A stretch of DNA of 64,000 nt from Myxococcota bacterium (GTDB lineage: Bacteria; Myxococcota_A; UBA9160; SMWR01), in assembly GCA_039030075.1 (NCBI GenBank), contig JBCCEW010000026.1, forward strand, positions 1 through 64,000. The letters are read 5' to 3'. How positions within the stretch are numbered: the first letter of the stretch is position 1; each line of letters begins with the position of its first letter. The notes under the pieces were generated by a model. The model had not been told where the DNA came from. It made no database searches and saw only the letters and a list, made by a program, of their open reading frames with translations. The translations under genes were made by a program, and so were the position numbers. Of the stretch, positions 48,322 through 53,422 are shown piece after piece.

Positions 48322-50226
48322 CTAGCGCCTGCCGAAACGACGCTCGATCTCGGCCAGCGAGAACGGCACCACGACCGGGCGTCCATGCGGACAGGTCGGG
48401 GCCCAGGGGACCGCATCGAGGCCGTCGAGCAGCGCCTGCTGTTCGCGGGGGTCGAGGTGGTCGCCTTTGCGTCGTGCGGCGTGGCAGGCCAGCGTCGCGA
48501 AGACTCGGTCCGCCGCTTCCAGCACCCGAACGTCGGCGGCCTCTCCGGAGCGACCGCTCTCGCCTTCCAGCCATGCATCCGCCAGGCCGCGCAGCAGCTG
48601 GGCGGGATCGCGGTCGGCGAGCAGTGCCGGCACGCTGCGGATCGCCATGGTGTCTTCGCCGAAGGGCTCGAGCTCGAACCCGAGGCGCAGCGCGTCCTCC
48701 AGGGCTCCCGTCAGTACCGCCATCGCCTGCGGCTCGAGCTGGACGGCAAGCGGCGTGAGCAGCCCCTGACGCTCGACCCCGTGCTCGAGCCAGTGGGCGC
48801 GCAGCTGCTCGTAGAGGATCCGCTCGTGGGCCGCGTGCTGGTCCACGAGCAAGAGCTCTTCCTTGCCTTCGACGATCAGGTAGGTCGCCTGGGTCTGGCC
48901 CAGCAGCCGCAGATCCCCGAAGCGGACACGCGCCTCGGCCGCGGGGGCCGCGGGCTCGCCCGCGTCCCGGGCGAAGAGCCAATCCGTGGCGCCGCTCGCA
49001 GCCGCACCGGCGGTCGCGCTCGGAAACCCACCGGGGCGCTCTCCCGAGGCGGCAGGTGGCGGCCCTGCGCCCCCTGCCCACCTCGCCTCGGAGGGGTGGG
49101 TGGTCTGAGACGGCGTGCTCGACACCACAGCGGAGGCCCCGGGGTCGGCGGCGAGCCAGCGTCGCCCGGCGAAGCCATCCCGGACGGCCTGGCGGACCCA
49201 GCGGTGGGCCGAGCGGCCATCGGCGAAGCGCACCTCCCACTTCGCCGGGTGGACGTTGACGTCGACCGCCTCGGGCGGCAGCTCCAGGAACAGCACGGCG
49301 CTCGGGAAACGCCCGCGCGGGAGTGCATCGCGATAGCAGTCGACCAGGGCGTGCTGCAGCGTCCGGTCGCGGACGGGACGGCCGTTCACGAACCAATAGA
49401 CGCCGGAGAGGTTGCGGCGGTGGCGATCGGGGCGGGAGACCCAGCCGTGGACCCGAACCCGCCCTTCCTCGGAGGCTACGGGCACCAGCGCCTCGGCTTC
49501 GGCCTCGCCCAGCACCACGGCGAGGCGATCCAGCGGGTCGGAAACGGCGGGCCAGGACCAGGCCGGTCGGTCGTCGCGAATGACGTCGATGTGGACGCCG
49601 GGCAGCGCAAGCGCGGTGCGGGCGATCCAATCGGTCGCGTGCCCCCACTCGGTGTTCGCGGTCTTCAAGAACTTGCGCCGCGCGGGCACGTTCCAGAACA
49701 GCTCGGCCACCTCGACCCGCGTCCCGACCGGACCGCCGGCCTCTCGCGGCTCGCGTTCTCCACCGCCTTCGACGCGGATTTCCGTAGCGACCTCGTCACT
49801 CTGGCGACGAGTCTTCAGGCGAAACTTCGAGACCGAGGCGATCGCGGGCAGCGCTTCGCCGCGGAACCCGAAGCTCGCGATGCGTACCAGATCCTCGGCC
49901 GTGCGGAGCTTGCTGGTGGCGTGGCGCTCGAGCGCCAGGAGCGCGTCGTCCCGCGACATCCCGACGCCGTCATCGGTGACCGCGATGAAGGCACGGCCTC
50001 CGTCCCGCAGCTCGACTCGCAGCCGCTGGGCGCCCGCATCCAGCGCGTTCTCCAGCAGCTCCTTCACCACGGAGGCGGGCCGCTCGACGACCTCGCCGGC
50101 CGCGATCTGATCGATGAGTGCGCTCGGAAGACGCTGCACCGCCCTTGAAGCCGGTCGCTCGTGTGCCCCTGCGGGTTCCGTGGACCTGACTTCTCTTCGA
50201 TCGCGCGTCCGGCCCGCGTCGCTCAC
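48322..50226 (-). CDS. mutL: DNA mismatch repair protein MutL
   Basis: A 634-residue GHKL ATPase. The N-terminus has IDQIAAGEVVERPASVVKEL with the catalytic Glu, then DDGVGM, ATSKL, GFRGEAL and GPVGTRVEVAELFWNVPAR. A Pro/Ala linker (about 370-435) precedes the C-terminal dimerisation domain, which begins LLGQTQATYLIVEG and has the DQHAAHER block; CPHGRPVVV is at the end. The DQHAxxER and CPHGRP motifs occur in MutL proteins, and endonuclease activity of the C-terminal domain is not judged here. GTG at 50226 with GGGGGAGCG before it was chosen; a longer frame adds unlike residues. It shares its upstream region with the NtrC-like gene. Confidence 0.96.
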   Translation of the reverse strand: MSDAGRTRDRREVRSTEPAGAHERPASRAVQRLPSALIDQIAAGEVVERPASVVKELLENALDAGAQRLRVELRDGGRAFIAVTDDGVGMSRDDALLALERHATSKLRTAEDLVRIASFGFRGEALPAIASVSKFRLKTRRQSDEVATEIRVEGGGEREPREAGGPVGTRVEVAELFWNVPARRKFLKTANTEWGHATDWIARTALALPGVHIDVIRDDRPAWSWPAVSDPLDRLAVVLGEAEAEALVPVASEEGRVRVHGWVSRPDRHRRNLSGVYWFVNGRPVRDRTLQHALVDCYRDALPRGRFPSAVLFLELPPEAVDVNVHPAKWEVRFADGRSAHRWVRQAVRDGFAGRRWLAADPGASAVVSSTPSQTTHPSEARWAGGAGPPPAASGERPGGFPSATAGAAASGATDWLFARDAGEPAAPAAEARVRFGDLRLLGQTQATYLIVEGKEELLLVDQHAAHERILYEQLRAHWLEHGVERQGLLTPLAVQLEPQAMAVLTGALEDALRLGFELEPFGEDTMAIRSVPALLADRDPAQLLRGLADAWLEGESGRSGEAADVRVLEAADRVFATLACHAARRKGDHLDPREQQALLDGLDAVPWAPTCPHGRPVVVPFSLAEIERRFGRR

Positions 50227-50305
50227 CGCTCCCCCACAACCACCCGAGCGCCGCCGCGCCCGTACCACGTTGCAGACTATCGCGTCAATCCCCGGAATTG
50301 GCGAC

Positions 50306-50331
50306 GCGAAACGCTTCTTCTCGTGTTTCGC
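50306..50331. promoter_or_regulatory. Inverted repeat in the mutL/NtrC-like divergent region
   Basis: GCGAAAC (50306-50312) and GTTTCGC (50325-50331) form a perfect 7-bp inverted repeat with a 12-bp spacer. It lies about 90 bp before the NtrC-like gene and 80 bp before mutL, where an operator for either could sit; it could also be a small hairpin. Confidence 0.4.
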
Positions 50332-50353
50332 AGGGGTTTTGGGTGCAATTGGA

Positions 50354-50383
50354 TTGACAGAACACCCTGGTACTCCATAGCTT
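50354..50383 (+). promoter_or_regulatory. Candidate promoter of the NtrC-like gene
   Basis: A perfect TTGACA (50354-50359) is followed after 18 bp by TAGCTT (50378-50383), or after 16 bp by CATAGC. The start codon is 35 bp downstream, preceded by GGGGGAGATC. The -35 is strong and the -10 weak, which would fit an activator-dependent promoter. Confidence 0.42.
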
Positions 50384-50417
50384 TGCTGCCTGACCAGGGG
50401 CGGGGGAGATCATCACG

Positions 50418-51389
50418 ATGACGGAGACCGCAGGGCGACTCGACGCAGTGTCGCACGGCGCGGAGCGCGCCACCGGACGTCGACGCAGCGATCGCATCGT
50501 CGGCGCTTCGCGCGCCATCCAGGATGTCGTAGAGAAGGCGGTGGGCGCCGCCGCTTCCGAGCTGCCGGTGCACATCCACGGGCCCGAGGGGTCCGGCAAG
50601 GAACACACCGCGCGCGCCATCCACAGCTGGAGCACCCGTGCAGGGGGCCCGTTCGTGGTGGTGTCCTGTGTTGGCGTTGCCGAGGCGCTACTCGGACGCG
50701 AACTCTTCGGTTGCGCGGCCTCCACCTATCCGAACTTCCCCGAAGCTCACGACGGCGCGCTCCAGCGGGCCGCCGGGGGCACGGTGATGATCGACCACGC
50801 CGACGCCCTGCCCGGCAACCTGCTCCAGGCCTTCAGCAAGGGCCTCGAGGACGGCCGCTTCGAGCGCGAAGGCGACGGCACGCCGCTGGCGCTGCGGGCG
50901 CGCGTGATCCTGGTCTCGCGGGCTCCGCTCTCGCCCTCTCCCTTCCGCGATCTCGCGCACCACACCATCGAGATGCCGAGCCTGGAAGAACGCGGCGATG
51001 ACATCCTGCCGTTGGCTACCCACTTCCTGCGTCTGCACGCAGAGGACCTGAAGGTCCAGCCGGTCGGCTTCACCACCGAGGCACGCGCCGCCCTGACGGC
51101 GGAGCGCTGGACCGGAAACGTCCGCGAGCTCTCCGAGCGCATCGGCCAGGCCCTGCGGCTGGCGGGCAGCGGCGCGATCTCGGCCGAAGCCTTGATGCTC
51201 TCGGCCCAGGCCGAGGAAGTGCCGTCGTTCAAGGAAGCGAAGCGCGCGTTCGAACGCCGCTACGTCACGAGCCTGCTGCGACGTTGCGATGGCAACATCA
51301 GCCGCGCCGCGCGCCTGGCGAAGAAGGACCGCAAGGACTTCTACGACGTGATCCGGCGTACGGGTGTGAACCCGGCCGACTTCCGCTGA
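50418..51389 (+). CDS. NtrC-type AAA+/Fis protein without the sigma-54 GAFTGA loop
   Basis: The 323-residue protein begins near its AAA+ domain (about 28-240) and has no receiver or sensor domain. Walker A is HGPEGSGKEHTARAIH, Walker B GTVMIDHAD, and RWTGNVRELSERIG is the C-terminal AAA+ motif. At the place of the GAFTGA loop that contacts sigma-54 stands FGCAASTYPNFPEAHDGAL, so contact with sigma-54 is unlikely. A Fis-type helix-turn-helix ends the protein (about 275-320, NISRAARLAKKDRKDFYD). The ATG at 50418 has a good site upstream. The nitrilase-family gene starts 5 bp after the stop. It may act as a plain DNA-binding regulator. Confidence 0.88.
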   Translation: MTETAGRLDAVSHGAERATGRRRSDRIVGASRAIQDVVEKAVGAAASELPVHIHGPEGSGKEHTARAIHSWSTRAGGPFVVVSCVGVAEALLGRELFGCAASTYPNFPEAHDGALQRAAGGTVMIDHADALPGNLLQAFSKGLEDGRFEREGDGTPLALRARVILVSRAPLSPSPFRDLAHHTIEMPSLEERGDDILPLATHFLRLHAEDLKVQPVGFTTEARAALTAERWTGNVRELSERIGQALRLAGSGAISAEALMLSAQAEEVPSFKEAKRAFERRYVTSLLRRCDGNISRAARLAKKDRKDFYDVIRRTGVNPADFR

Positions 51390-51394
51390 GCCCG

Positions 51395-52207
51395 GTGGAC
51401 GACGCGCTCCGCGTCGCGGTCGTCCAGCTCACCTCGACGGACGTTCTCTCGGACAACCTCGCGGTTGCCGAAGGTCTCGTGAGAGAGGCCGCCGCGGCAG
51501 GTGCCCGCTTCATCGCGCTGCCCGAGATGTTCCCTTTCCTGCGCCGCGAAGGGCAGACGTTTCCGCACGCGCAGGACGTCGAGGGCGAGATCCTGGGACA
51601 CGTCCGCGACTGGGCGCGCTTCCACCAGGTGCGGATCGCCGCCGGGTCGATTGCCGAGGTCACGGACAGCGAACGCGTCTACAACACGAGCGTGTTGGTC
51701 GGCCCCGACGGCGCGACCGAGGCCGTCTACCGGAAGATCCACCTCTTCGACGTAGATCTGGGTGACGCGGGGGGCGGCACCTACCAGGAGTCGAAGAGCA
51801 TCGCGCCCGGCGACGAGGTGGTGGTGGCCGACACCGAGATCGGCGGAATCGGATTGTCGGTCTGCTACGACCTGCGCTTCCCCGAGCTCTACCGCACCCA
51901 GGCCGCGCGCGGCGCCCAGTGGCTCTTGGTGCCGAGTGCCTTCGCACCCGCGACGGGCCGCGACCACTGGGAGGTGCTGTTGCGGGCGCGGGCGATCGAG
52001 AACCAGGCCTTCGTCCTGGCCGCGGCCCAGTGCGGACAGCACAGCCCGGATCGCGCCAGCTACGGTCGCTCGCTGATCGTGGACCCCTGGGGAGTGATCT
52101 TGGCCCAGCTCGCCGACGCTCCGGGGATCGCCGTGGCGGACTGCTCCCGGGCCCACCTCGCGCGGGTGCGCCAGAAGCTGCCCGCCCTCGCCCACCGGCG
52201 CCTCTAG
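51395..52207 (+). CDS. Carbon-nitrogen hydrolase (Nit/omega-amidase type)
   Basis: A 270-residue nitrilase-superfamily enzyme with the Glu-Lys-Cys triad in ALPEMF, YRKIHLFDVD and SVCYDLRFPEL. These forms and the length match the Nit1/Nit2-like branch (deaminated glutathione amidase or omega-amidase). It would hydrolyse a small amide; the substrate is uncertain. GTG at 51395 is 5 bp after the NtrC-like stop, so the genes are probably co-transcribed, though no functional link is obvious. Confidence 0.93.
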   Translation: MDDALRVAVVQLTSTDVLSDNLAVAEGLVREAAAAGARFIALPEMFPFLRREGQTFPHAQDVEGEILGHVRDWARFHQVRIAAGSIAEVTDSERVYNTSVLVGPDGATEAVYRKIHLFDVDLGDAGGGTYQESKSIAPGDEVVVADTEIGGIGLSVCYDLRFPELYRTQAARGAQWLLVPSAFAPATGRDHWEVLLRARAIENQAFVLAAAQCGQHSPDRASYGRSLIVDPWGVILAQLADAPGIAVADCSRAHLARVRQKLPALAHRRL

Positions 52208-52301: not shown

Positions 52302-52598
52302 ATGGCGGCAAAGATCGTGATCAGCAACGGCGAATCGGCAGGACTCGAGTACGAGATCGTGGCCGAAGAGACCCTGATCGGCCGGAATCCGACCACCGAC
52401 GTGACGCTGCTCGACGAGAACATCTCGCGCGAGCACGCGTTGATCCTGTTCGACAGCGAATGCGACGCCTACGTCGTGGAAGACCTGCAGAGCACGAACG
52501 GCACGAAGGTCAACGGCAAGGGCATCCGCTCCCACGAGCTTGCGCCCGGTGACGAGATCCAGATCGGGCACACCAAGTTCTCGTTCCAGCGGGACTGA
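52302..52598 (+). CDS. Stand-alone FHA-domain protein
   Basis: A 98-residue protein that is all one FHA domain. LIGRNPTTDVTL (GR motif), ISREHALI (SxxH) and STNGTKVNG (NG) are the phosphothreonine-binding signature. Ser/Thr kinase partners are not in the window. The ATG at 52302 is 94 bp after the amidase stop. Free FHA modules of this size occur with many kinases and secretion systems in Myxococcota; here the partner is unknown. Confidence 0.92.
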   Translation: MAAKIVISNGESAGLEYEIVAEETLIGRNPTTDVTLLDENISREHALILFDSECDAYVVEDLQSTNGTKVNGKGIRSHELAPGDEIQIGHTKFSFQRD

Positions 52599-52723: not shown

Positions 52724-53422
52724 ATGCGAACGAATCACCCGACCCGAGGCGCCCTGGCGCGCGTGGCCTGTCTCGCGCTCTTGGCGAGCTTCTCCGTCGC
52801 CTGCAGCACGACGCCGAAGCCGGCGCCGTCCCCGGGCGTGAATCTTCCCGACTACCGCGTCGGCGCGCCCGACGCCCTGGTGGTCAACATCCTCCCCGAC
52901 CCGATCATCACCGAGCAGCTGATCGTGCGGCCCGACGGCAAGATCACCGTGCAGCTCGTGGGTGACGTCGTCGCGAGCGGTCGCACCACCGAGCAGATCG
53001 CCGCCGACATCCAGCAGCGGATCTCGCGCTTCAAGCGCGGCGCGGTCGTCACCGTCGGGCTGGTCAACGCCCAGAGCTCCACCATCACGGTGCTCGGCGA
53101 AGTCGCAGGGCCGCGCACCTTCCCGATCGGCAAGCAGATGCGCGTGGCCGAGGCACTGGGCGCGGTCGGCGGTGTCACCCGCTTCGCGTCGGACGACGAC
53201 ATCTATGTGGTCCGCGACGGCAACCCGCCCCAGGTCTTCCGGATCGACATGCAGGCCATCCGCAAGGGCGACCTGAGCACGAACATCCAGGTCTACGGCG
53301 GCGACATCATCTACGCCGAGCCGACCGCGTGGGCGAAGGTGGGCTACGCCGTCCAGGCCTTGCTCTTCCCCTTCCAGCCGATCCTCAACATCGCGCGAAC
53401 CGTCGCTGGCGGAGCCTTCTAG
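52724..53422 (+). CDS. Wza-like polysaccharide export lipoprotein
   Basis: The 232-residue protein has a signal with lipobox SVAC (about residues 24-27), a Poly_export domain (YRVGAPDALVVNILP, then IVRPDGKITVQLVGDVVASG) and a SLBB-type second domain (STITVLGEVAGPRTFPIG, MRVAEALGAVGG, VYGGDIIYAEP). The C-terminal region is an amphipathic hydrophobic helix, as in the outer-membrane barrel of Wza. It exports capsule or exopolysaccharide across the outer membrane. No kinase/Wzc partner follows; the polysaccharide genes 9-19 kb away probably use it. Confidence 0.94.
   Translation: MRTNHPTRGALARVACLALLASFSVACSTTPKPAPSPGVNLPDYRVGAPDALVVNILPDPIITEQLIVRPDGKITVQLVGDVVASGRTTEQIAADIQQRISRFKRGAVVTVGLVNAQSSTITVLGEVAGPRTFPIGKQMRVAEALGAVGGVTRFASDDDIYVVRDGNPPQVFRIDMQAIRKGDLSTNIQVYGGDIIYAEPTAWAKVGYAVQALLFPFQPILNIARTVAGGAF

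Follow-up and report, generated by a model that had tools for sequence, protein, structure and literature searches.

A GAFTGA-less relative of sigma-54 activators with a decayed ATPase site, encoded divergently from mutL in an order of Myxococcota

The window, the whole stretch of 64,000 nucleotides analysed, contains a gene for a 323-aa regulator at 50418..51389 on the forward strand. Upstream and on the reverse strand lies mutL (48322..50268 for its longest ORF, start uncertain; Pfam). Downstream is the gene of a nitrilase-superfamily amidase (CN_hydrolase in Pfam; 51395..52207, forward strand), whose GTG start at 51395 follows the regulator stop by 5 bp. Both the divergence from mutL and the 5 bp spacing agree with a preliminary description of the locus. 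A stand-alone FHA-domain protein of 98 aa (52302..52598, forward strand; Pfam) is encoded next, as a neighbour rather than a demonstrated member of the group, followed by a Poly_export/SLBB protein downstream of the amidase (52724-53422; Pfam).

The regulator ORF is genuine. It matches PF00158 (Sigma54_activat) at 91.2 bits (E 8e-26, residues 27-171; cut-off 20.2) and AAA_lid_14 at 58.3 bits (E 7e-16), giving an AAA+ core of bEBP type, a lid (residues 191-268; 50988..51221, forward strand as are all features of the gene) and a Fis-type DNA-binding end. Descent from the sigma-54 activators, the bEBP family, is shown by these sequence matches. No Pfam match precedes residue 27 and neither a receiver nor another sensor domain was found in the protein, as had been described for the receiver.

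The regulator belongs to an orthologous family with members in 71 of the 79 genomes searched from the Myxococcota order. The 72 members, a count that here and below includes the regulator of the window, all score at least 229 bits in the genome search, and the next matches, at 137 bits, are ordinary bEBPs. Eight genomes (G022, G029, G037, G038, G041, G061, G062 and G067) gave no orthologue match, an absence that may reflect missing sequence. Genome G073 carries two copies, the second of which (L059, G073:C173:10301-11227) is distant from mutL and the amidase gene and has an equally conserved DNA-binding end. A search of 377 genomes of the phylum found the regulator in 10 of the 11 genomes of a further family of the same class, f12 (267-333 bits), with lower matches running downward from 236 bits (G218). 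Scanning of named genomes confirmed 84 loci, of which the best 80 were taken. These are mostly from Myxococcota, Myxococcales or Deltaproteobacteria with a few others, including seven from Acidobacteriota (L167, L168, L169, L175, L177, L179 and L180), and one (L171) is from isolate UBA9160, which we take to be the GTDB name of the order or class. No publication about the family was found by titles and the starts of abstracts, subscription papers being outside this coverage.

In place of the GAFTGA loop that contacts sigma-54, the regulator reads STYPNF (residues 102-107; 50721..50738), within the sequence ELFG-CAA-STYPNF-PEAHDG. The phmmer alignments with PspF and ZraR contain no indel here, and being gap-free across the contact loop they place STYPNF at the exact GAFTGA position, which bears out the replacement proposed earlier. 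An intact motif elsewhere in the protein was also looked for, and no GAFTGA-like string occurs in the regulator or in any of the 72 orthologues. The stretch from G98 to G113 comprises the canonical 16 residues in 47 orthologues, 7-9 in 18, 11-15 in 6 and 19 in 1. The same genome encodes sigma-54 and many bEBPs in which a GAFTGA-type loop is kept, which makes the loss a peculiarity of the regulator.

The decay extends well beyond the loop. Walker A is intact in the window, as previously described (GPEGSGKE, residues 55-62; 50580..50603), while the family has Lys in 37, Arg in 34 and Ala in 1 of 72, and Asp for the P-loop Gly in 13. Walker B, which had been thought intact, is degenerate by alignment: it reads VMIDHA (residues 123-128; 50784..50801), that is, D-H rather than D-E, with His for the catalytic Glu. 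Across the family the Asp is present in 21/72 and the Glu in 7/72, with both together in a single protein, L042, which is also the only orthologue to combine them with the Walker A Lys; its relatives L040 and L041 read D-D. In the regulator, the Asn equivalent to PspF N64 is replaced by Ser and the sensor I Asn by Arg, and the arginine-finger segment is largely missing too. The interval from sensor I to the arginine fingers is shortened to LSPSPFRDLAHHTI (residues 171-184; 50928..50969), and the first finger columns are gapped in 70-71 of the 72 orthologues. The sensor II Arg is present in 53/72 and the Glu that follows it in all 72. By comparison, 20/20 other bEBPs of the same genome (L001-L020) retain the Walker A Lys and D-E and have F, R, D and R in the finger columns; this set excludes L021, for its degenerate-looking motifs, and L023-L028, which are weak matches of 21-29 bits. 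L021 (G000:C2:277667-278122) is itself a second unusual bEBP, a 439-aa frame with a PF00158 match of 101 bits, in which GGTLVLEG occupies the Walker B region where LDE would be usual; the expression used matched no ELFG-type loop in it.

These motifs bear on whether the protein might still bind ATP without hydrolysing it, binding then driving oligomerisation and activity at sigma-70 promoters as in NtrC of Rhodobacter capsulatus. The intact Walker A here, the Lys of 37 orthologues and the sensor II Arg of 53 are consistent with such a role, and nucleotide binding could persist given that the Lys is kept in half of the family. According to PMC10274813, ATP needs differ among such proteins, R. 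capsulatus NtrC requiring ATP binding but not hydrolysis and Caulobacter NtrC requiring its Walker motifs. However, the Lys is replaced by Arg or Ala in 35/72 and the P-loop Gly by Asp in 13/72, so that binding would be no property of the family as a whole, and this explanation is unlikely.

Conservation is distributed very unevenly along the protein. Mean pairwise identity is 0.27 over residues 1-24 (2,485 pairs), 0.41 over the AAA core, 0.62 over residues 189-268 of the lid and 0.88 over the 55 C-terminal residues (2,556 pairs for each of these three); by these identities, the strongest constraint falls on the DNA-binding end. Compared with its probable orthologues in G011 and G004, the control activator L011 has identities of 0.68 and 0.64 in the core and 0.57 and 0.61 in the helix-turn-helix (HTH) end; in the same genome pairs the regulator has 0.41 and 0.43, and 0.75 and 0.87, respectively. 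The conservation gradient of the family is thus inverted relative to this canonical control, a small one of one protein and two pairs. The Fis-type HTH (KKDRKDFYDVIRRTG, residues 269-323; 51222..51386) had been called intact, which its near-invariance and modelled helices support, but its HTH_8 score of 19.6 bits lies under the Pfam cut-off of 22.

The AlphaFold2 model, built with 49 sequences, has a mean pLDDT of 89.6, with residues 1-20 below 50, and places helices of the DNA-binding end at 271-289, 294-300 and 305-315. A Foldseek search of the PDB with this model returned NtrX, NtrC1, FlrC, ZraR and PspF, and the regulator is predicted to keep the bEBP AAA+ fold. For the 22 closest of 59 pairs, NG86 omega ranges over 0.08-0.33 for the core, where one pair is saturated, and over 0-0.11 for the HTH end; the core values indicate that the decayed AAA core is still under purifying selection. 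This selection, the open frames in 71/79 genomes and the near-invariant DNA-binding end speak against a decaying, pseudogene-like relic, for which the poor conservation of the core could be cited. A sigma-54 activator with an unusual loop would fit the 91 bits still scored against PF00158, but the loop is altered or deleted in 72/72 and catalytic residues are lost. Both of these readings are highly improbable.

The retained core fold also bears on a possible anti-activator role, in which a dead subunit would mix into the rings of an active bEBP or compete for its sites. Dead AAA+ subunits can poison rings, and the predicted fold would allow it. Against this, the finger and loop surfaces that meet neighbouring subunits are gone or altered. 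No paralogue in the same genome shares this DNA-binding end, the next best match scoring 25.6 bits against 108.6, which argues against competition with a sister activator. An anti-activator is accordingly rather improbable, though less so than a relic or a working activator.

Homologues were compared for their gene context, of which the mutL part proved general and the amidase part did not. Divergent mutL within 650 bp is found at 68/72 loci, or 68 of the 70 testable, L063 and L098 having no upstream sequence and falling outside the test. It was not seen in the 4 kb beside L059, the second copy of G073, or beside L081. Divergence from mutL is a stable contextual feature of the regulator and could be plain synteny, the neighbourhood being der-miaA-mutL. 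The amidase gene lies on the same strand no more than 200 bp downstream at 57/72 loci, farther off at 8 and was not seen at 7, five of which have at most 1.5 kb of downstream sequence. A regulator-amidase operon as a general rule was rejected on these counts. At L071, L162 and L176 an opposite-strand gene of the PGI (phosphoglucose-isomerase) family, absent from this position in the window, lies between the regulator and amidase genes. A same-strand FHA gene is present at no fewer than 46 of the 72 loci and a Poly_export gene at no fewer than 26, with flank lengths that differ; their recurrence downstream in many relatives hints at a possible link with polysaccharide export.

The intergenic region carries a putative sigma-70-type promoter for the regulator at 50354..50383 (forward strand), consisting of TTGACA (50354-50359), an 18 bp spacer and TAGCTT (50378-50383), recognised by sequence and as a conserved block. 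Upstream of its -35 is TGCAA (50344..50348, forward strand), the form taken in the window by a conserved CGCAA box, which is a candidate operator element. TTGACA aligned with a conserved -10 block, with CGCAA a few bases upstream of the -35, is found in 53/72 upstream regions; the other 19 failed this promoter rule, and the invariance of TTGACA in the set comes from the selection. Free alignment of 16 upstream regions, the window included, recovered the same block without the rule, all 16 being drawn from loci that had already passed it. A putative mutL promoter lies on the reverse strand at 50262..50288, with TTGACG (50288-50283), 15 bp and TGGTAC (50267-50262), and the strict expression for it was matched in 13/70 upstream regions. 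Because its -10 covers the opening codons of the longest mutL ORF, which starts at 50268, translation of mutL probably begins deeper within that ORF. Neither strand of 50150-50420 has a sigma-54-type -24/-12 element in which GG and GC are in register.

The pattern CGCAA-N(4-7)-ATTGACA has 51 matches in the 79 genomes, 27 upstream of the regulator gene and 24 elsewhere, against 6 for the reversed control; the promoter of the window, with TGCAA, is not among them. Thirteen of the 24 matches elsewhere were read, and 12 have, by the rule applied, a downstream ORF of at least 80 aa, no two of which are alike at E 1e-5. The box thus appears largely particular to the regulator gene, which is compatible with autoregulation without proving it. 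With 24 of the 51 matches elsewhere against 6 in the control, it may also be partly a promoter feature. Relatives in other families have TTGACA or a similar sequence upstream, and the CGCAA box was not seen there by eye.

An operator-like inverted repeat shared with mutL, as first proposed, is not supported. The region contains nine short inverted-repeat pairs, and as a shared operator the repeat was rejected for want of conservation across the 16 aligned upstream regions. One pair, GTCAATCC/GGATTGAC, overlies the proposed -35 hexamers of the regulator and mutL promoters, and GCGAAAC/GTTTCGC (50306-50312 / 50325-50331) is not kept in the 15 aligned relatives. A dyad search in the aligned promoters placed ATTGA/TCAAT arms at the top, with 0.76 in 37 non-f9 rows and 0.74 in 16 f9 rows, where they occupy the same place but one base closer. 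These too were rejected as an operator, as the arms fall on the -35 and -10 regions and move when the promoter spacing changes.

Relatives outside the order suggest how the protein was stripped. The seven Acidobacteriota proteins share the KDRKDFYD DNA-binding end with the regulator, yet all seven keep a GAFTGA-type loop and an LDE Walker B. Of the three scanned for domains, a Response_reg domain was seen in L167 and, within the stretch scanned, in neither L175 nor L180. From their sequences they look like intact activators. Seven further relatives, from outside the family of the order (L158, L161, L162, L165, L166, L173 and L174), lack both a GAFTGA-like loop and D-E but keep the length of the finger segment, and L176 reads LDQ and has no GAFTGA loop. 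In a tree of 53 rows, including 18 of the 72 orthologues, the family of the order joins these seven and L176 at 100/98 and stands alone at 100/100; the midpoint root serves for drawing only and does not place the Acidobacteriota on one side or the other. The contact loop and Walker B would have been lost first and the arginine fingers later.

Remodelling of the sigma-54 closed complex is not expected of a bEBP that lacks the contact loop and hydrolysis. PMC10274813 and PMC3162934 state the same expectation, and the known cases described there tie GAFTGA loss to sigma-70 promoters, which counts for a sigma-54-independent reading. The earlier suggestion of conversion to action without sigma-54 gains good support, as an inference, from the loop loss in 72/72 orthologues, the genome itself retaining sigma-54 and other GAFTGA-type bEBPs. 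It needs amending in that decay has also reached Walker B, sensor I and the arginine fingers, and the protein is no GAFTGA-only variant with an intact ATPase. On sequence grounds, the combination of an almost unchanging DNA-binding end with a degenerate AAA+ engine points to plain DNA binding at sigma-70 promoters. The former sigma-54 activator is probably now an ordinary DNA-binding regulator, ATPase-dead and sigma-54-independent, at sigma-70-type promoters. It would form oligomers by means of its AAA+ core and lid with no turnover of ATP, bind a conserved operator through its Fis-type end and repress or activate such promoters by occlusion or contact, much as VpsR, TyrR and R. capsulatus NtrC do. 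For a protein that has neither a sensor domain nor an ATP cycle, the simplest guess for the switch is the level of the regulator itself or a partner protein. The regulator is possibly autoregulated; the promoter of its own gene, in the region shared with mutL, would be the first target to expect, an assignment given slightly less than even chances.

A broader proposal is more doubtful. In a regulator common to the Myxococcota order, of which a second group of the class would carry an older version, the whole AAA+ engine would serve as a nucleotide-independent scaffold, or as a sensor of a partner or ligand, for sigma-70 transcription. With the DNA-binding end almost fixed, decay of the engine would have been stepwise, taking the contact loop and Walker B, then the arginine fingers and the P-loop Lys last, and the protein may also set mutL expression from the shared intergenic region.

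GAFTGA-less bEBP relatives are known as individual cases. The present proteins form a natural series, related in their DNA-binding ends, that begins with Acidobacteriota members of apparently intact make-up and ends with forms in which no ATPase site is recognisable. Such a series would let the AAA+ fold without an ATP cycle be tested as a transcription-factor scaffold, along with the succession of losses by which a sigma-54 machine is dismantled. The decayed regulator adjoins mutL in most of the genomes examined from this uncultured, myxobacteria-like group, and annotating its family as sigma-54-dependent regulators would probably be wrong.

The closest parallels are bEBP relatives in which GAFTGA is lost or altered. 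TyrR, DhaR, HupR, VpsR and YplP are named with a defective element, along with about 110 deviating homologues, in PMC3162934, where TyrR and DhaR of E. coli and HupR of R. capsulatus are reported as sigma-70 dependent. NtrC of R. capsulatus and of Caulobacter, with GAFTGA deleted, acts at sigma-70 promoters according to PMC10274813. The regulator shares with the TyrR, VpsR and R. capsulatus NtrC kind, at the level of sequence, bEBP descent, a lost GAFTGA loop and a Fis-type DNA-binding end; the only sigma-70-type promoter seen is the putative one of its own gene. Unlike VpsR (Vibrio cholerae), TyrR, DhaR, HupR and YplP (B. subtilis), it lacks any sensor domain and its ATPase site has also decayed. 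The TyrR model matches at 119 bits, far below its cut-off, and VpsR chains at 86.7 bits (profile and phmmer searches); by these matches the regulator forms its own orthologous family and is no orthologue of VpsR, TyrR, DhaR, HupR or YplP. Its best NCBIfam match is GlrR (NF011695; 161.9 bits over residues 16-323, cut-off 763), a receiver-domain response regulator, whereas the regulator has no receiver. The NtrC proteins of R. capsulatus and Caulobacter likewise keep the receiver domain, which is absent here; Walker B, sensor I and the fingers are gone as well. The regulator is set apart from its known GAFTGA-less relatives by the absence of a sensor domain, the near-total loss of the ATPase site, the inverted conservation and its place beside mutL. 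Most likely it works as these relatives do, as an extreme variant of the TyrR, VpsR and R. capsulatus NtrC kind.
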